IMG/VR virus record: IMGVR_UViG_3300007735_000566
Span: 1-27,806 of that record
Length of the DNA: 27,806 bases
Reading direction: 5' to 3' (one strand)
From: a virus
A program made the translations under genes and the position numbers. Of the stretch, positions 8,782 through 24,441 are shown piece after piece. Position 1 is the stretch's first letter, and each line of letters begins with the position of its first letter. The notes below the pieces were generated by a model, which was given only the letters and a program-made list of their open reading frames with translations, was not told the DNA's origin and did no database searches.

Positions 8782-9134
8782 TCTGGACGAACCCCTGGGT
8801 CAGGTGTTTGTTCAGCTCTAATAACTTGATTTTTCTTGTAAACAGCACTTTTCAGTGTGTTAACAAAACCATCTATGCCTGCCAGCTGATTTGCTAGGGC
8901 AATGCGTTCTGCATTGGCTTCTGCTGTGTGAGTTCTAATATTGGCCATAGCATCATTTACTTCAAATTTAAAATGATGTATGAACATGGCCAAGTCACGA
9001 TGCTTGATCAATGACTCAGCTATGCTACCATATTGTTTGATAGCATCACGCTGTGCAGGTGTTAACTTTTTTACATTGCTGGTGTCAATGGTCAGCCTAC
9101 GATTGTAGGCATCCACTGCTTCTTCTGATATCAT
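8778..9134 (-). CDS. Small helical protein between portal and scaffold, unknown
   Basis: 118-residue protein (MISEEAVDAYNRRL) predicted by eye to be largely alpha-helical. A conserved-looking central block reads LTPAQRDAIKQYGSIAESLIKHRDLAMFI (split here only for description), with a polar helical remainder and a short proline-containing end. There is no catalytic motif, signal peptide or membrane segment. Start: ATG at 9134 with AAAGGA seven bases upstream. It lies between an inserted endonuclease-like ORF and the scaffold gene, so it is probably a virion-assembly accessory or minor head protein (inference from place only). Its stop codon is part of a CTAAATAA element. Confidence 0.65.
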   Translation of the reverse strand: MISEEAVDAYNRRLTIDTSNVKKLTPAQRDAIKQYGSIAESLIKHRDLAMFIHHFKFEVNDAMANIRTHTAEANAERIALANQLAGIDGFVNTLKSAVYKKNQVIRAEQTPDPGVRPD

Positions 9135-9144
9135 ATGCTTTCCT

Positions 9145-9474
9145 TTACCAATGTTTTACAGCACGGACTTCTTTTATTCCTTGTGCTATTTTTGCTTTGC
9201 TTTCTTCTGTATGCGATTGGAAGAAACCTCTACCATTTTTTCTTGCTTCTAATGTATTTTCTTCAGTTGTAAGTTTACGACAATTGTCAGGATGATATGC
9301 CCCGCAATCATTGTAGCGAGCCATAACCAAACATCCTTTTTTACTGCCTCGCTTTTCTAAATCATCGCCCCACCAAGCAATCCATTCATTTAAACTAAAT
9401 TGCCATTCAATACCTCGGCGTTTAGCACGAACTTTTTGATTATGATATTTTCTGCAAATCTCTGTTCTAGTCAT
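9145..9474 (-). CDS. Homing-endonuclease-like mobile ORF (copy 2), after the portal gene
   Basis: 109-residue basic protein clearly related to the ORF at 12057-12383. Shared blocks are AKRR.I...F...EWI.WWGDD...RG..KG.LVMAR, then D.G.YHPDN. The second block resembles the R..D..G.Y.P.N signature of phage HNH/AP2-type homing endonucleases. The C-terminus (HTEESKAKIAQGIKEVRA) resembles a NUMOD3-type DNA-binding helix found in intron- and inter-gene-encoded endonucleases. It is inserted between portal and the 118-aa gene with 20 and 10 bases of flank. Only a weak AGAAAGA ribosome-binding site precedes ATG 9474. DNA cleavage is inferred from family resemblance; a full His-Asn-His triad cannot be proven by eye. 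Confidence 0.6.
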   Translation of the reverse strand: MTRTEICRKYHNQKVRAKRRGIEWQFSLNEWIAWWGDDLEKRGSKKGCLVMARYNDCGAYHPDNCRKLTTEENTLEARKNGRGFFQSHTEESKAKIAQGIKEVRAVKHW

Positions 9475-9494
9475 TTCATTTCTTTCTAAATTGA

Positions 9495-11798
9495 TCAGTG
9501 GCCATAATCCTGTGGACGACCAGTTTCAGTGCTGGCAGCTAGACTCATAAAGTTTAGCTGACTGTCTGCATCTTCGCCAGCAACTTCAGCAGCAATCTGC
9601 TGAGCCTTGACATCATTGAGTTTGGCTGTACTGATGTTCTTCTGATCTTCTGGGCTTGGTCCTTTGTTCTTGCGTGTTTCTTCAGCTTGCTGAATCATCT
9701 TGATCACTTCTTGATCGCTAGGCAAGTAAGCTGTGGTATCTTTGATACCCAACACATACAATGTGTCTTCAAAAGGCTTTTTGACCTTTTTAAATATTTC
9801 AGGTGTCAGTGTTCCAGCAGCAACCATGCCCTGCACAGTTTCATAAAGTTGAGCCTGTGTCTTTTGAATCAGCTGCTGGCGACCCAAAGCATTTTCTTGA
9901 CTCATCATGCCCAAAGCCAATTCCAGTTGAATCTGCTTGCGATCGCAAAAGTTCATGTCATCAAAGGCCTGATAGTCTAAGAATACGGGCTGTCGATCTG
10001 GGTGACTGCTTTGTGCCAGTTTACGCACACCATAATCATCACCATACTGGATCAAAGTACGCCATACCAACCATAGTGCTTCACGGAGACCTTCAGCAGC
10101 ATTGCGTACTGTGTTGTCTTGAATGATCTGATTGGGGCTTAGAGCCATTTGTAGTTTAACACCTGAATTACCTGGTGCCATAATTTCTGGATTGAACACA
10201 TCCTGTGGTGTGGTCATACCAACCATGGCCATAGTATCCTGTTGAATACGATTCATAGCCACTTCTAAGAACTGTAGATTACCACTGGGAGGTGGCATTT
10301 GATAGATGTCTTTTTGTGGATCAAACTTTGAATCCAAGATAAAGATAGCAGCTTCGCCATCCTGCATCATTTCAAAGTCCACACGGTCTGGTTTGACACC
10401 AATACGCGGTGTAGCAGTCAACAAGCCCAGCTGAATTTCAGCTCTAGCAGCTGATGTCTGATATTCCTGCATGGGAATCACTGATTCGCCAATGCTCATG
10501 CCATAGAAGTTGCCAGGCAAGGGCTTGGGACACATGTTGGCCACTGGAATAAATTCAACTTCTTTGGCACTGATGATATAACTGCCTGAGTAAATCAATT
10601 CAATGAGTTCTAATTCACCATCGCCATCAATGTCATACTTGTTCCATACTGTGACAATACTTACTTGACGACTGTCTGGATCTGCTGATGCAGCACTTGA
10701 CACTGGAATACCCATAACAGGCACTGAGTCTCTGGCATGAATAGCTAGGTTGTTTAGCACTGAACCTGCTTGGTAAGCGCCGTTCATGTTGTATTCAGCA
10801 TGTTGTTCAAAGGCTTCTAGGTTATCACTGATACCTGGATACAGTTCCACAGCTTCCTGAATGGTCATTGGATCATAAAAACCGCAGAAGGGTTGATCAC
10901 GCATTTCTGGCACAGTGGGATCACAGATCCAGTAGTGCTGTGCAATGGGATGGAACTTGATGTTGACATTGTAGCCAGTCAACTTGTAGCGAGCCTTGTA
11001 GATTGTGTTTCTGCGAATAGCTGTGCGTAGGATTTCTTCCTGACTTTCTGTTTGACTGCGATATAAATCTTCGCTTTGTGTCAACGGATCTGTTTGATCT
11101 GTTTCTTCTGGCAAGCTTTCAAGGCCCTGCATCACAATGTCAACTTGACTTTGCATCAGTTCCTGATTGCTTTCGCCTAATAGTTGCTGGACTTCGGCCA
11201 TAACAGCCTGCATGTCCACAGTATCTCTGCGACGGCTTTGGCGCATGGCAGTGAGTCCTGCATCTGCTGCCTGCTGTTCAAAGGCCTTTAGCTGATCTGC
11301 GGTACCCTGTGTTTCTACATAGCGCACAATTGCTTCACGAATGGGTTTGATCATCATCATGCCATTTTTGTGCATGGCACTGTCCATAACCCAACGCTCT
11401 AAAATAAAGTGTGGATCATTCATTTGATTCACAACCTTACTGACCATGTTGGTTGCTTGGCGAGCAGCAGTTTCATCTGCTTCTGAGTCTGCTACAAATT
11501 CAAAGTTGATTTCACCATTGGGCAACAGGCCTTTGGTAATAACTGCTGTGGCATAATCCACCACTGGTTTTACACTAGGGTGAATGTAATCAATACCATT
11601 TACAGGTGCAGTTGAATCTGTAACTGCTAGACAGAGATAGTGATAGTCAGTGGCTCTGTTAACAGCGTTTTTGGTGCCCAGATAACGCAGATAAGATGCC
11701 ATTTTGACATCCATCTGATTCTTCATACGCACAAAAGTGGCGTTGATTTTGCGGTTCTGATTTATATCCTGTACGGGCGTATGTTTAATATCCAGCAT
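9495..11798 (-). CDS. Portal protein
   Basis: 767-residue protein forming the dodecameric portal ring through which DNA is packaged and ejected. Features typical of large podovirus (P22/SU10-like) portals: an N-terminal helical region, a long middle domain with beta blocks (DGDGELELIELIYSGSYIISAKEVEFIPV, in pieces), the clip/stem region around FYGMSIGESVIPMQEYQTSAARAEI, and a helical, Gln-rich C-terminal barrel region. Length fits the P22-like portals (about 700-770) rather than the shorter siphovirus ones. It lies downstream of the terminase with only two small ORFs between. Start: ATG at 11798 with AAAGGA upstream and a CTAAATAA element 25 bases before. The C-terminus ends GRPQDYGH, just before the inserted endonuclease-like ORF. 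Confidence 0.88.
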   Translation of the reverse strand: MLDIKHTPVQDINQNRKINATFVRMKNQMDVKMASYLRYLGTKNAVNRATDYHYLCLAVTDSTAPVNGIDYIHPSVKPVVDYATAVITKGLLPNGEINFEFVADSEADETAARQATNMVSKVVNQMNDPHFILERWVMDSAMHKNGMMMIKPIREAIVRYVETQGTADQLKAFEQQAADAGLTAMRQSRRRDTVDMQAVMAEVQQLLGESNQELMQSQVDIVMQGLESLPEETDQTDPLTQSEDLYRSQTESQEEILRTAIRRNTIYKARYKLTGYNVNIKFHPIAQHYWICDPTVPEMRDQPFCGFYDPMTIQEAVELYPGISDNLEAFEQHAEYNMNGAYQAGSVLNNLAIHARDSVPVMGIPVSSAASADPDSRQVSIVTVWNKYDIDGDGELELIELIYSGSYIISAKEVEFIPVANMCPKPLPGNFYGMSIGESVIPMQEYQTSAARAEIQLGLLTATPRIGVKPDRVDFEMMQDGEAAIFILDSKFDPQKDIYQMPPPSGNLQFLEVAMNRIQQDTMAMVGMTTPQDVFNPEIMAPGNSGVKLQMALSPNQIIQDNTVRNAAEGLREALWLVWRTLIQYGDDYGVRKLAQSSHPDRQPVFLDYQAFDDMNFCDRKQIQLELALGMMSQENALGRQQLIQKTQAQLYETVQGMVAAGTLTPEIFKKVKKPFEDTLYVLGIKDTTAYLPSDQEVIKMIQQAEETRKNKGPSPEDQKNISTAKLNDVKAQQIAAEVAGEDADSQLNFMSLAASTETGRPQDYGH

Positions 11799-11823
11799 CG
11801 GCGAGGTTTCCTTTGGTCATGGA

Positions 11824-11831
11824 TTATTTAG
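11824..11831 (-). promoter_or_regulatory. CTAAATAA late-promoter-like element before the portal gene
   Basis: Exact CTAAATAA within CCAGACTAAATAATCC on the coding strand, 25 bases upstream of the portal start and overlapping the stop codon of the 81-aa gene. The portal ribosome-binding site AAAGGA lies between. Same motif and similar spacing as at 16468 and 23077. Confidence 0.55.
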
Positions 11832-12073
11832 TCTGGTAAGATTATGTGAGGACGAGTAAGTTCCTCAGCCAAATCGCAAACCTGGCACTTGTGCTCAGCT
11901 GCATCTTCTGCTGTCATTGGAATTGTGGTAGCTGGCAAGTTGATTTCTTTGCACAACAGCTGATAAGTTTGGCTGTGCAGCTCGCACATGATTACTGGTG
12001 CTTTTTCAGCTACCAAAACCAAGTATAAACTGGGTGCTGGTGTGGTAGTTTCTGCGTTATCCTTGTGGGTCAT
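11828..12073 (-). CDS. Small putative zinc-binding protein
   Basis: 81-residue protein (MTHKDNAETTT) with Cys/His pairs placed as in small zinc ribbons: C-E-L-H near residue 30, a further Cys about 11 residues on, and H-K-C-Q-V-C near residues 61-66. The C-terminus is EELTRPHIILPD. A structural zinc site is inferred; the function is unknown. Its ATG lies inside the last codons of the endonuclease-like ORF upstream (T-ATG-AC within the YDPQG codons), so the two genes overlap by 17 bases in different frames. The same peptide ends the terminase, which suggests this start originally overlapped the terminase gene. It sits between terminase and portal, a usual place for small packaging or head accessory proteins. 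Confidence 0.65.
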   Translation of the reverse strand: MTHKDNAETTTPAPSLYLVLVAEKAPVIMCELHSQTYQLLCKEINLPATTIPMTAEDAAEHKCQVCDLAEELTRPHIILPD

Positions 12074-12383
12074 ATTGTTTTCTCTTTTTCCAATTAGCTT
12101 TTAGACTCTCGCTTCGTTTAAGTCTAGATTCAGCAGACAAAGGCCTACCTTCAACTCCTGCAATCACATTTAGTGAACAATTGCATTTAAAAACATTGTC
12201 AGGATGATAAGGGCCCGTGTCGCCTTTGCGGGCCATTACAAGTTGGCCTTTGCTTTTACCGCGATTAACAATGTCATCGCCCCACCAATGGATCCATTCT
12301 TCGTAAGTGAATTCGAATTTAATATTTCGCCTTTTTGCATTGCGGCGCTGGACTGCATAATTTGAGTAATAGGGTTTTTTCAT
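12057..12383 (-). CDS. Homing-endonuclease-like mobile ORF (copy 1), after the terminase gene
   Basis: 108-residue basic protein, paralogue of the ORF at 9145-9474 (shared EWI.WWGDD, KG.LVMAR, D.G.YHPDN). It has an HNH/AP2-like D-G-x-Y-x-P-x-N block and a NUMOD3-like C-terminal helix (LSAESRLKRSESLKANWKKRK). It inserts between terminase and the 81-aa gene. Unusually, its last residues are YDPQG, identical to the terminase C-terminus but encoded by different codons. There is no Shine-Dalgarno before ATG 12383; instead TATAAT lies at 12390-12395, six bases upstream, so the gene might be transcribed on its own and leaderless (speculative). Cleavage activity is inferred from resemblance only. Confidence 0.62.
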   Translation of the reverse strand: MKKPYYSNYAVQRRNAKRRNIKFEFTYEEWIHWWGDDIVNRGKSKGQLVMARKGDTGPYHPDNVFKCNCSLNVIAGVEGRPLSAESRLKRSESLKANWKKRKQYDPQG

Positions 12384-12424
12384 GATATTATTATAGCATT
12401 AACCTTGAGGATCGTATGTTCTCT
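12057..12424 (-). repeat. Synonymously recoded duplicate of the terminase 3' end flanking the inserted ORF
   Basis: The terminase ends TACGATCCTCAAGGTTAA (12416-12399) and the inserted ORF ends TATGACCCACAAGGATAA (12074-12057). Both encode YDPQG-stop; every difference is at a third codon position, and similar AAGAGA/ACA bases precede both. The downstream copy contains the ATG of the 81-aa gene; in the terminase copy that ATG is lost (ACG). The two copies are 342 bases apart, the size of the inserted unit. Confidence 0.7.
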
Positions 12425-14015
12425 TGATTGCCGCTTTGTTGGCGTCATCTCGAGGACGATAATATTTGTTACGAGCTGCTGCCATTCTTTGTTGAGGGGT
12501 TCTATTGTCCCAGGGCTCTGCAATACCATTTAGACACCCTAACAATGCGTAACGAGCAGAGTCAATGGTGTCATCTGGGTCACTAAATCTGCCTTGTTGA
12601 TCCACATAGTAATTTTGTGCATCACTTAAAAATTGTGTGCAATTTTCATTTACCATTAATGAACCAGTTTCTAGCATTTGACGCATCTGGTTAATGCCAT
12701 ATGCTTTGTGATTTGTAACGCGGCCTTCTGAATCAGGTGGGTTCATAATGGGCTTGTGATATACATTGAGTTCATAACTTTCAAACAATTCTCTAACACT
12801 ATTTGCACTCATAGTATATCTACCAGGGGTACTGGCATCAGGTGGTAACACAATAGGGGTGCCAAATACCTCAGGACGAAGTAGATGGTTAACATACTGC
12901 ATAGGTACGGCTTCTTCAATACCTTGCACCACAATCTGTTTGTGTAGATAAGCAGTTCGTTCATAAGGATCCCAGTACATCAAAGTAATAACAGTTTGGT
13001 CATTGACTAGACCCAAATCAAGAGCAATGATTCTATGTATGTTAGGCATTTGATCAAAACGCATCTGACTGCTTGAGTAAGTTGGCCAGTCACGAATTTG
13101 AAACACAGCGCCTTTGCCCATCACAGGCTTACCAGCAATACGAGCCTCTCGTTCATGTGGCAAGTAGTCTCGTTCTAGTTGTCGGCGTGTTTCTGCTAAT
13201 AGAAATGGTTGACCCCAAGGATCATACTCAGGCACATCCGCCCACGATACACGAATGTATTCATATCCTGATTCCTTGTTCCAAAACTTGCTTACCAGTC
13301 CGTTAAGACCTTTGAGTGGTGTAAACGAACACAACACTTTGCCTTGTGTGGTAGCAGTTCTAGTAACAATTTCTGAAAAGAAGTCGTCGGGTGGTTGTTC
13401 GTCAAACACAGCAAGGTTCAATTTGAAACCTTGCAATTGGCGCACTTCCTGTGTGTAGTTGGCAAATAGGAGATAACTTTTAGCACCTGACACATGCCGT
13501 ATTTCTACACCAATACAGTTGGCGCCATCATTACGCATGGTTTCAATCACAATGCAATCCCGAGGTATTGCACCAGTGCCAATATGTTCTACAAGTTTGA
13601 CATCTTGTGTGCCCAACAATTCATTTTGTAGAACCAGTGCTACCTGGCTCCAACCTTCACCAGCTACCATGCAGGTTATAGGCCCTGAAAATCTATAACC
13701 ATCCCACCACTCAGGATATTGGCCAGTGAGGTGCATGGCTGTTTCATAACAGGTACTTGTGGTTTTACCTACTCGGTTGGCAGCTAGGATACCACGGCGA
13801 TCACTGGCACCTGTTCTAAAGAAATCACGCTGATGTTCAAAAGGCCTAAAATATTTTAAGTTATTGAACTGCATGTCATCAGCAGTGGCAATCACAAGAT
13901 CCTGCAAGTGATTGCGAAGATTGCTAGGCCACCGCTGATAAGTTTCTGGTGCTACTCCATTTGAATCAAGAGCATGACGCAGGGCACGAGCCATTAAGAC
14001 ATCTGTACCTAGCAT
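12399..14015 (-). CDS. terL: Terminase large subunit (ATPase-nuclease DNA packaging motor)
   Basis: 538-residue packaging motor. The ATPase half has a Walker A-like GILAANRVGKTT at residues 75-86, Walker B plus catalytic acid LAVFDEQ at 201-207, and a coupling motif SFTPLKG at 230-236. The nuclease half has an RNase H-like acidic set: D333 in IIALDLG, D393 in PPDAS and D482/D485 in DDTIDSAR. Length and motif spacing are normal for tailed-phage TerL. Start: ATG at 14015 with GAGG upstream, one base after the stop of the preceding gene; a second in-frame ATG at residue 8 is possible. The last codons (YDPQG) are duplicated synonymously at the end of the endonuclease-like ORF immediately downstream. 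Confidence 0.93.
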   Translation of the reverse strand: MLGTDVLMARALRHALDSNGVAPETYQRWPSNLRNHLQDLVIATADDMQFNNLKYFRPFEHQRDFFRTGASDRRGILAANRVGKTTSTCYETAMHLTGQYPEWWDGYRFSGPITCMVAGEGWSQVALVLQNELLGTQDVKLVEHIGTGAIPRDCIVIETMRNDGANCIGVEIRHVSGAKSYLLFANYTQEVRQLQGFKLNLAVFDEQPPDDFFSEIVTRTATTQGKVLCSFTPLKGLNGLVSKFWNKESGYEYIRVSWADVPEYDPWGQPFLLAETRRQLERDYLPHEREARIAGKPVMGKGAVFQIRDWPTYSSSQMRFDQMPNIHRIIALDLGLVNDQTVITLMYWDPYERTAYLHKQIVVQGIEEAVPMQYVNHLLRPEVFGTPIVLPPDASTPGRYTMSANSVRELFESYELNVYHKPIMNPPDSEGRVTNHKAYGINQMRQMLETGSLMVNENCTQFLSDAQNYYVDQQGRFSDPDDTIDSARYALLGCLNGIAEPWDNRTPQQRMAAARNKYYRPRDDANKAAIKRTYDPQG

Positions 14016-14016
14016 G

Positions 14017-14202
14017 TTACCTCTGCTGTTCTATAAGAGTGCTGATTAGATGTTCTAAATCTGTGTCATCCAAAGCAATTTGAAAACTAGTGGTGCCAAG
14101 ATCTTGGTCTTCTCGTATCAAGGTAACAAATAGGAGATCCCGGTGCCAAGCAGCTTCAAGATCCACTCGTGTTTTTGGTGCTCGTGTTAAATTTACTTTC
14201 AT
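14017..14202 (-). CDS. Small protein upstream of the terminase, unknown
   Basis: 61-residue soluble protein (MKVNLTRAPKTRVDLEAAW) with a mixed beta pattern followed by an acidic helical end (DDTDLEHLISTLIEQQR). Start chosen at ATG 14202 rather than the upstream TTG at 14208, because of the normal ATG and a GAGA sequence about eight bases before it. It overlaps the previous gene by 47 bases in another frame and ends TAA-C-ATG into the terminase start, a translational-coupling arrangement. No family is recognised. Place directly before terL makes a packaging accessory conceivable, but this is position-based only. Confidence 0.6.
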   Translation of the reverse strand: MKVNLTRAPKTRVDLEAAWHRDLLFVTLIREDQDLGTTSFQIALDDTDLEHLISTLIEQQR

Positions 14203-23094: not shown

Positions 23095-24441
23095 TTACAT
23101 CAGGCTCTTTCCACCAGGTGTGCCAGGAATTCGCATTCTAGGCGCGGTGTCAAAACCAGCAACTGGCTGCACGGCACTCTTTCCACCAGGTGTGCCAGGT
23201 ATGCTCATAGCAGCTGGTGCAGTGGCAGGAGCAAATGACTGTGCTGGGCTCATGTTATTGCCTGCTACAAATGGATTGCCTCCAGCCAAAAGCATTTGAA
23301 TTTGTGCTGCTGTCAAAGGTGCTGCCATTTGTTGCAGTCCCCAAGGCTGTGCTGGTGCAAATGGGCTAGATCTAGCCACATCAGCATTGAATGTTTGTCC
23401 GTCTGGACCTCCAGTTTGGAATGGTGCTGTGCCCCAGTAGTAACGGCTTTGTACTGGACTTGTAGTATTGTACTGTGGTACAGCCTGCATCAATCCAGGA
23501 TTGAGACCTTGTGGAATTCGTGCTGTAGGTGTTGGAGTTACAGGAGTTATAGGAGTAACTGGAGTAACTGGAGGTGTTACAGGAGGTGTAACTGGTGGAA
23601 CTACTGGACCATCACCGCCGCCATCTCCTCCTCCATCACCGCCGCCATCAGCGCCATCATCTCCGCCATCATCACCTGTGTCAGCGTCGCCATCTCCATC
23701 ATCGCCAGTATCACCATCATCGCCAGTATCACCATCATCGCCAGTATCGCCAGTATCGCCAGTGTCACCTGTATCTGAGTCATCTGCGGCATCATCAGCA
23801 TCATCAGCATCATCAGCATCATCAGCATCATCAGCATCGTCAGCTGCGTCATCTGCTGCGTCATCTGCTGCGTCATCTGCTGCGTCATCTGCTGCGTCAT
23901 CTGCTGCGTCATCTGCTGCGTCATCTGCTGCGTCATCTGCTGCGTCATCTGCTGCGTCTGCATCACCAGCATCATCACCCGCATCGCCCGCATCACCTGC
24001 GTCACCTGCGTCACCTGCGTCACCTGCGTCACCTGCGTCACCTGCATCGCCCGCATCACCTGCATCGCCCGCGTCTCCGGCATCACCCGCGTCTCCGGCA
24101 TCACCACCAGCATCACCTGCACCATCTCCAGCTCCGCCGTCACCACCATCGCCACCGCCATCGCCACCGCCATCGCCACCGCCATCTCCACCGCCACCGT
24201 CACCACCACCATCTCCACCTTCAAACATGGGTAGTCCAGTGTGGGGGTTGATACGGCCACTTCCGCCGTGTTCTTTTAGCAGTTCTGCTTCTTCTGGTGT
24301 AATATGGGCCAGCACGGTATCATTACCAATACCCATAGATCTTAGCTGCTGAGCTAGTTTTTTAAGCTCGCTGTCGCTAGCCTGAGCTAGGATCTGGCTA
24401 AAATCCTGGCTCTTTGATTTTTTTGGTCGTTTTACTGACAT
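23095..24441 (-). CDS. Virion-module protein with a ~200-residue Gly/Asp/Ala acidic repeat domain
   Basis: 448-residue protein in three parts. Residues 1-74 are a basic then helical head with LAHITPEEAELLKEHGGSG and INPHTGLPMF, a module found at the N-terminus of many phage internal virion proteins. Residues ~75-278 are almost only Gly, Asp, Ala and Thr with no Lys/Arg: GGGD units, then (GDA) triplets, (DDAA) units, (DDA) units and (GDTGDD) units. A Pro/Thr/Val linker and a globular C-terminal part follow, ending in two copies of IPGTPGGKS. The middle would be highly negative and disordered, perhaps a Ca2+ or cation binder, a DNA mimic or an entropic spacer; none is proven. Its start overlaps the oxygenase gene by 10 bases. 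Confidence 0.7.
   Translation of the reverse strand: MSVKRPKKSKSQDFSQILAQASDSELKKLAQQLRSMGIGNDTVLAHITPEEAELLKEHGGSGRINPHTGLPMFEGGDGGGDGGGGDGGGDGGGDGGGDGGDGGAGDGAGDAGGDAGDAGDAGDAGDAGDAGDAGDAGDAGDAGDAGDAGDAGDAGDDAGDADAADDAADDAADDAADDAADDAADDAADDAADDAADDAADDADDADDADDADDADDAADDSDTGDTGDTGDTGDDGDTGDDGDTGDDGDGDADTGDDGGDDGADGGGDGGGDGGGDGPVVPPVTPPVTPPVTPVTPITPVTPTPTARIPQGLNPGLMQAVPQYNTTSPVQSRYYWGTAPFQTGGPDGQTFNADVARSSPFAPAQPWGLQQMAAPLTAAQIQMLLAGGNPFVAGNNMSPAQSFAPATAPAAMSIPGTPGGKSAVQPVAGFDTAPRMRIPGTPGGKSLM
23105..23199 (-). repeat. Perfect 23-bp direct repeat encoding PGTPGGKS near the C-terminus
   Basis: Positions 23105-23127 and 23177-23199 are identical and encode the same PGTPGGKS peptide, the second copy only a couple of residues before the stop codon. 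Perfect DNA identity over 23 bases points to recent duplication or gene conversion. Confidence 0.85.
23790..23843 (-). repeat. 9-bp tandem repeats encoding (DDA)n
   Basis: The unit catcatcag (plus-strand reading) occurs five times perfectly from 23790 to 23834 and once with a single change (catcgtcag, 23835-23843). It encodes DDA triplets in the acidic domain and abuts the 12-bp array. Confidence 0.9.
23845..23952 (-). repeat. Nine perfect 12-bp tandem repeats encoding (DDAA)n
   Basis: The unit tgcgtcatctgc (plus-strand reading) occurs nine times with no mismatch. It encodes alternating Asp-Asp-Ala-Ala. Complete identity over 108 bases indicates recent expansion by slippage or unequal recombination. 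Assembly length here may be unreliable in short-read data. Confidence 0.93.
24001..24045 (-). repeat. 9-bp tandem repeats encoding (GDA)n
   Basis: Five perfect copies of gtcacctgc (plus-strand reading), continued on both sides by diverged copies; they encode the Gly-Asp-Ala run. A further 12-bp unit, gccaccgccatc, repeats three times perfectly at 24151-24186 and encodes GGGD-type residues. Confidence 0.9.

Follow-up and report, generated by a model that had tools for sequence, protein, structure and literature searches.

A homing endonuclease-like phage gene that probably ends in the displaced tail of the neighbouring terminase gene

Mobile genes known between other genes

Endonuclease ORFs that alter the ends of neighbouring genes are known as mobile ORFs (mORFs) from fungal mitochondria, where gene hybrids occur in Glomus atp6, atp9, cox2 and nad3 and in Allomyces atp6 (PMC3630166). 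The inserted ORF gives atp6 and the other genes a foreign C-terminus, and the native one lies beyond the ORF (PMC3630166). The phage locus described here works like a mORF hybrid but is not a member of that class, since it consists of a phage genome with an HNH-like ORF rather than fungal mitochondrial DNA. As in mORFs, a mobile ORF supplies a foreign, differently spelled, in-frame C-terminus upstream (seen in relatives, and presumed for the locus itself), and the native C-terminal part appears to be displaced beyond the ORF. Unlike the mORFs, which are of LAGLIDADG type and involve long C-terminal pieces, the phage loci have HNH-like ORFs and involve a few to tens of codons; in addition, the displaced native end would be translated as the endonuclease's own C-terminus and carry the start of the next gene.

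In phages, the free-standing seg and mob genes of T4-like genomes are intron-less, lie between conserved genes and are transferred with co-conversion of their flanks, and the start codons of mobE, segC, segF, mobA and mobC overlap the upstream gene, according to the accessible parts of PMC2988022. The present locus resembles them in having free-standing endonuclease genes between conserved genes and flank co-conversion, but their overlaps are at the start of the ORF, and those parts of the source describe no displaced upstream tail as the ORF end. Homing endonuclease genes (HEGs) also lie near terminase and other essential genes at phage recombination boundaries (PMC10448857, accessible parts). 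This holds for the present HEG too, although the families described there are T5orf172 and IPA-HNH and tail displacement is not part of the accessible account.

Straboviridae carry small HNH genes in their tRNA arrays that belong to the same protein family (phrog_16521) as the ORF studied here. Unlike it, relatives in four of six T4-like records lie among tRNA genes and not between overlapping protein genes. Straboviridae loci L179-L182 have family members within tRNA arrays, and the ORF as annotated in Klebsiella phage KP185 overlaps at its end with a tRNA-Lys gene. Searches of open-access papers gave no description of a displaced upstream-gene end that serves as endonuclease C-terminus and stop while keeping the next start. 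The present case differs from known ones in its phage setting, its small scale and a displaced end that forms the endonuclease C-terminus and stop together with the start of the next gene.

A candidate homing gene behind terL

The window, meaning the whole stretch of DNA analysed, comprises positions 1 to 27,806 (27,806 nt) of IMG/VR record IMGVR_UViG_3300007735_000566; all genes discussed are on its minus strand (Table 1). Read directly on that strand, terL ends AAG AGA ACA TAC GAT CCT CAA GGT TAA and the 108-aa ORF behind it ends AAA CAA TAT GAC CCA CAA GGA TAA, with 342 nt from stop to stop. Both proteins end in YDPQG-stop, and four of the five codons differ, at the third base only. The 81-aa gene starts at T-ATG-ACC in the ORF copy; the corresponding letters of the TerL copy are T-ACG-ATC, with no ATG. 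The observation made earlier from the letters alone (the sequence-only reading) is thus confirmed, and its interpretation is borne out in part.

Table 1. Features of the locus and of its paralogue in the window
Feature	Position	Strand	Basis
terL, large terminase subunit, 538 aa	12399..14015	-	Pfam Terminase_6N E 4e-16; PHROG terminase
terL 3' stretch, apparently imported, AIKRTYDPQG-type allele; left edge uncertain, extent approximate	12399..12475	-	Alignment; conflict between tail and core
Upstream, differently spelled terL tail TACGATCCTCAAGGTTAA (YDPQG-stop), without ATG	12399..12416	-	Direct reading
TATAATA element just before the ORF start, without clear Shine-Dalgarno	12389..12395	-	Recurrence at insertions; function presumed
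HEG1, 108-aa HNH-like free-standing homing endonuclease candidate	12057..12383	-	PHROG matches, structure model, presence/absence in relatives
Putative displaced native terL end TATGACCCACAAGGATAA, forming ORF C-terminus and stop and holding the next gene's ATG	12057..12074	-	17/18 identity to terL ends of relatives
81-aa small protein (G81), conserved CxxH...CxxC, start inside the displaced tail	11828..12073	-	Homologues directly 3' of terL in relatives
HEG2, HEG1 paralogue between the portal gene and a 118-aa gene, without tail copy	9145..9474	-	tblastn, PHROG; ORF-less junctions in relatives

The 108-aa ORF (HEG1) is most likely a free-standing HNH-type homing gene, a candidate whose HNH assignment is weak by sequence and whose cleavage activity is presumed. 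HEG1 matched phrog_16521, a family of unknown function (E 7e-20), and weakly the HNH family phrog_3118 (E 0.008), while HEG2 gave a weak HNH PHROG match (E 1.8e-4). Neither had a match in the Pfam search. An AlphaFold2 model of HEG1 (pLDDT 93) had as best PDB match the HNH restriction enzyme PacI, with a probability of 0.98 but E 0.085, followed with low probability by other HNH/I-PpoI/ColE7 (His-Me) entries. Searches that used HEG1, HEG2 or the 81-aa protein as a single sequence returned no matches; the ORF family was then recovered by alignment-based search, and a scan of genome contigs with the HEG alignment found no relatives. Mobility is indicated by presence or absence between conserved genes, both within the family (L202/L204) and for another HNH family at the same site (L001/L002), with many further relatives lacking the ORF. 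Short co-conversion of flanks on transfer was seen in L202 and L002 and probably holds for the window.

HEG2 is related to HEG1 by tblastn (E about 2e-18) and matches phrog_16521 (E 2e-18). It was considered as a second tail-copy case and rejected, its stop merging with the AAAGGAA intergenic leader of the next gene. Elsewhere in the window, a 448-aa ORF (23095-24441, minus strand) has a long Gly/Asp/Ala-rich repeat (GDGGGDGG, DAGDAGDA, DDAADDAA).

Probable native and foreign ends of terL

Eighty viral contigs with terL relatives were fetched for comparison. In ORF-less L001 (=L185), L011, L012, L024 and L027, terL ends TATAACCCACAAGGATAA and the 81-aa homologue follows directly, so that alignment with ORF-less relatives gives the Y[D/N]PQG ending and gene order (as in L001) that the sequence-only reading led one to look for. 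The last 18 nt of the ORF are identical to these ends at 17 of 18 positions, and the end of the window's terL at only 13 of 18 (L001). The tails closest to that upstream copy (TACGATCCTCAAGGTTAA) are those of L032, L017, L050, L255 and L102. The comparison therefore supports the ORF as the holder of the displaced native TerL end and terL as the holder of a different version, in keeping with the earlier suggestion that the original copy was kept at the far end of the insert for the start of the next gene. Against this, the exact 18-mer TATGACCCACAAGGATAA occurred in no other viral contig.

It had also been suggested that terL and the 81-aa gene once overlapped at this peptide. In 17 of the 92 distinct relatives with both genes, the 81-aa homologue begins within the end of terL, the overlap lying exactly at TATGACC or CATGACC (Y/H-D-P codons), which is the arrangement predicted. 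In the nearest ORF-less relative (L001), however, G81 starts 2 nt after the TerL stop without overlap, and an overlap in the window's own direct ancestor is therefore plausible but uncertain. The collections searched contained no near-identical ORF-less relative of the window (best terL relatives 87% at the amino acid level), and the edges of its imported tract are estimates for that reason.

The origin of the upstream tail is clearest from two near-isogenic pairs. L001 has no insert and L002 carries a different HNH gene at the same place; they are 99% identical to the right of the insert and nearly identical to the left, except for two terL stretches, one of which adjoins the insert. The last 114 nt of terL have 33 differences, as against 2 in the preceding 100 nt, and the 38 codons of the tail have 11 synonymous and 8 non-synonymous codon changes. 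The foreign terL 3' end of L002, left of the insert, is about 118 nt long, and the old terL stop (AAGGATAA; AAGGATAAACATGG) now serves as the stop of the different HNH gene. The second divergent stretch (terL nt about 375-825) has no insert and lies in an otherwise near-identical terL; recombination there is therefore not confined to the insert. In the other pair, L202 (with an insert of the window's ORF family) and L204 (without) show 96-100% identity between -350 and about -70 nt relative to the terL stop. Identity falls to 56% in the remaining tail and becomes complete once more some 20 nt inside the 81-aa homologue. The replacement tract in L202 thus measures about 70 nt on the left and 20 nt on the right, and its terL tail is 98% identical to that of L102, another insert-bearing phage. 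Both pairs have short replacement tracts around the insert, as would be expected from cut repair copied from a donor.

The window has comparable signs. Its alignment to L001 stops 75 nt before the terL stop, and the last 39 nt of terL are 51% identical to L001 and 79% to L017. The core of terL is closest to phages with PAWKK/PQWKK-type ends (WK-tail), unlike the tail AIKRTYDPQG, whose closest DNA is in L255 (HNH insert), L017, L032 (methyltransferase insert), L102 and L202. AIK-type tails were found beside 4 of 12 inserted homing genes and in 3 of 93 other cases (Fisher p 0.003, uncorrected for kinship); after correction, two to three of four to six independent pairs agree, which is too few to test. 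AIK tails without an insert, in L017, L066 and L264, count against the association. As homing genes arrived with foreign TerL ends in both near-isogenic pairs, the recoded tail of the window is best explained by co-conversion that brought in a foreign allele, presumably by the same route, and not by tailored recoding. This replaces two points of the sequence-only reading: the upstream copy does not look purpose-made for restoring the terminase C-terminus, and what was imported exceeds the 342-base unit, by about 70-118 nt in the two measurable pairs.

The arrangement very probably arose when a free-standing homing endonuclease gene of the HNH type inserted between terL and the 81-aa gene, bringing a donor terL 3' arm and displacing the native tail into the ORF end. 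A short piece of the terL 3' end of a donor phage would have come with the ORF as its left arm and, because of this, the recipient terminase would have acquired a C-terminus and stop that were complete but foreign and spelled differently. The right junction would have fallen inside the recipient's own terL tail, so that the original YDPQG-stop was pushed downstream in the same frame, where it would now end the endonuclease and still carry the start codon of the next gene. Double-strand-break repair is the likely route, with cleavage of DNA by the ORF product. The comparisons above support this displacement model.

Homing enzymes cut sites that their carriers lack, and selection for synonymous changes that destroy the cleavage site, and so confer immunity, might account for the recoded upstream copy. 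In the window, L002, L090 and L122 the upstream copy indeed departs from the native end. The changed stretch of L002, however, is about 118 nt long and has 8 amino acid changes among its 19 changed codons, as expected of an imported allele. Such tailoring is unlikely as the source of the recoded tail, though it could act on top of import.

Insertions at other gene boundaries

A survey of ORF homologues for copies of the tail of the upstream gene, which the sequence-only reading had proposed, yielded two more. In L090, from a second phage group with the same ORF family behind another terL, the ORF ends CATCAACTTGCATAA, the very sequence with which terL ends in ORF-less L147, L153, L154 and L173, and the phage's own terL ends CATCAATTAGCATAA followed by GAAAGAAAAAG. 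In L122, at a third boundary, the upstream gene ends GTGGACGAATGA, within which the ORF may start, and GTGGACGAGTGA, the end of the ORF, includes a GTG start for the next, terS-like gene. The native C-terminus is thus displaced downstream of the ORF in the window, L090 and L122; L002, L219 and L144 retain the stop only or the last one to two codons (two residues and the stop in L219, CAAGGTTAA; the last codon and stop in L144). The left flank of the L090 insert, TTAGCATAAGAAAG[A/T]AAA, is common to three different inserted genes in that second phage group (in L090; L140/L141/L143; L144/L175).

The inserted ORF of L122 (L122:1010-1392) lies between overlapping genes and has a 12-nt near-perfect repeat, GTGGACGA(A/G)TGA, at both ends. 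Duplication of the terL tail on insertion, of the target-site type, with later drift of the copies by synonymous changes, would fit this repeat (GTGGACGAATGA/GTGGACGAGTGA) and the identity of the five residues in the two copies of the window. Drift cannot, however, place a foreign left tail amid nearly identical flanks, as in the two near-isogenic pairs, and divergence in the window is not confined to the repeat but extends to its upstream side and points towards a different allele type. Duplication is accordingly improbable, and displacement by an insert with a donor arm is the preferred reading.

HNH enzymes are often encoded in introns, but a group I intron, intein or bypass element is practically excluded here, as terL is complete with its own stop, positions 9000-14100 have no Rfam match (E up to 1) and ORF-less relatives have a single uninterrupted terL.

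Identical C-terminal runs occur in 3 of 44 distinct pairs of ORF and upstream gene (YDPQG, five residues, in the window; HQLA, four, in L090; VDE, three, in L122). Among 1,874 mismatched pairs no run of at least three residues was found, and the shared tail is therefore not due to chance. YDPQG was absent from the other ORF ends among the matches listed from 54 ORF-family loci, the 44-pair control covering the rest, and is therefore not a family motif; a conserved ending at unrelated sites, which would have spoken against the sequence-only reading, was looked for in these two sets and did not appear. Although the match has only five residues and variable tails are common in the family, the idea that these ORFs just happen to end so is refuted by this control and by DNA homology that runs on into the next gene.

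Most members of the ORF family have no tail copy, and in many the last codons contain or adjoin the ribosome-binding site and start of the next gene. The ORFs of L083, L089, L091 and L110 precede a 401-aa gene and include its ribosome-binding site in their last codons, to which all but that of L110 add its ATG. The tails of L255 and L102 (KHI-stop) were considered as displaced terL tails of the WK type and were not counted, because they finish on the ATGA that belongs to the following gene and are similar to HNH C-termini.

On the tree, HEG lineages group by site of insertion (9 changes, as against 17.5 when shuffled). Since the window ORF falls, with weak support, outside the group formed by L202, L219 and L104, which occupy the same site, the tree suggests separate colonisations of the terL/81-aa site. 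This gap has also taken up methyltransferase-like genes and other cargo (L005, L032, L068, L212, L217, L228, L230 and L259) and has the appearance of a general hotspot for insertion. TATAAT is present in five of seven insertions at the site and TAAAAT in the other two. The left junctions of L002, L102, L202 and L219, like that of the window, have TATAATA about 5 nt before the inserted ATG and no clear Shine-Dalgarno; TATAATA could be a promoter that gives a very short or leaderless mRNA.

More tentatively, the terL tail and TATAATA leader may form a shared docking arm, the mobile unit being this arm plus an interchangeable nuclease, and overlapping-gene boundaries may be general entry points at which the newcomer takes the old stop and the next start. 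If so, unrelated HNH families (those of the window and L255, and possibly that of L002) would share one foreign terL tail as their left arm.

Genes in phage genomes are closely packed and often abut or overlap, which raises the question how a selfish gene can enter without harm. The loci described here give before-and-after pairs in which entry is visible base by base. The newcomer would bring a spare end for the preceding gene and take over the old end along with the following gene's start. Short recoded 3' ends of essential phage genes may thus be explained as footprints of homing, and the loci connect homing genes of phages with the mobile ORFs that form gene hybrids in fungal mitochondria.
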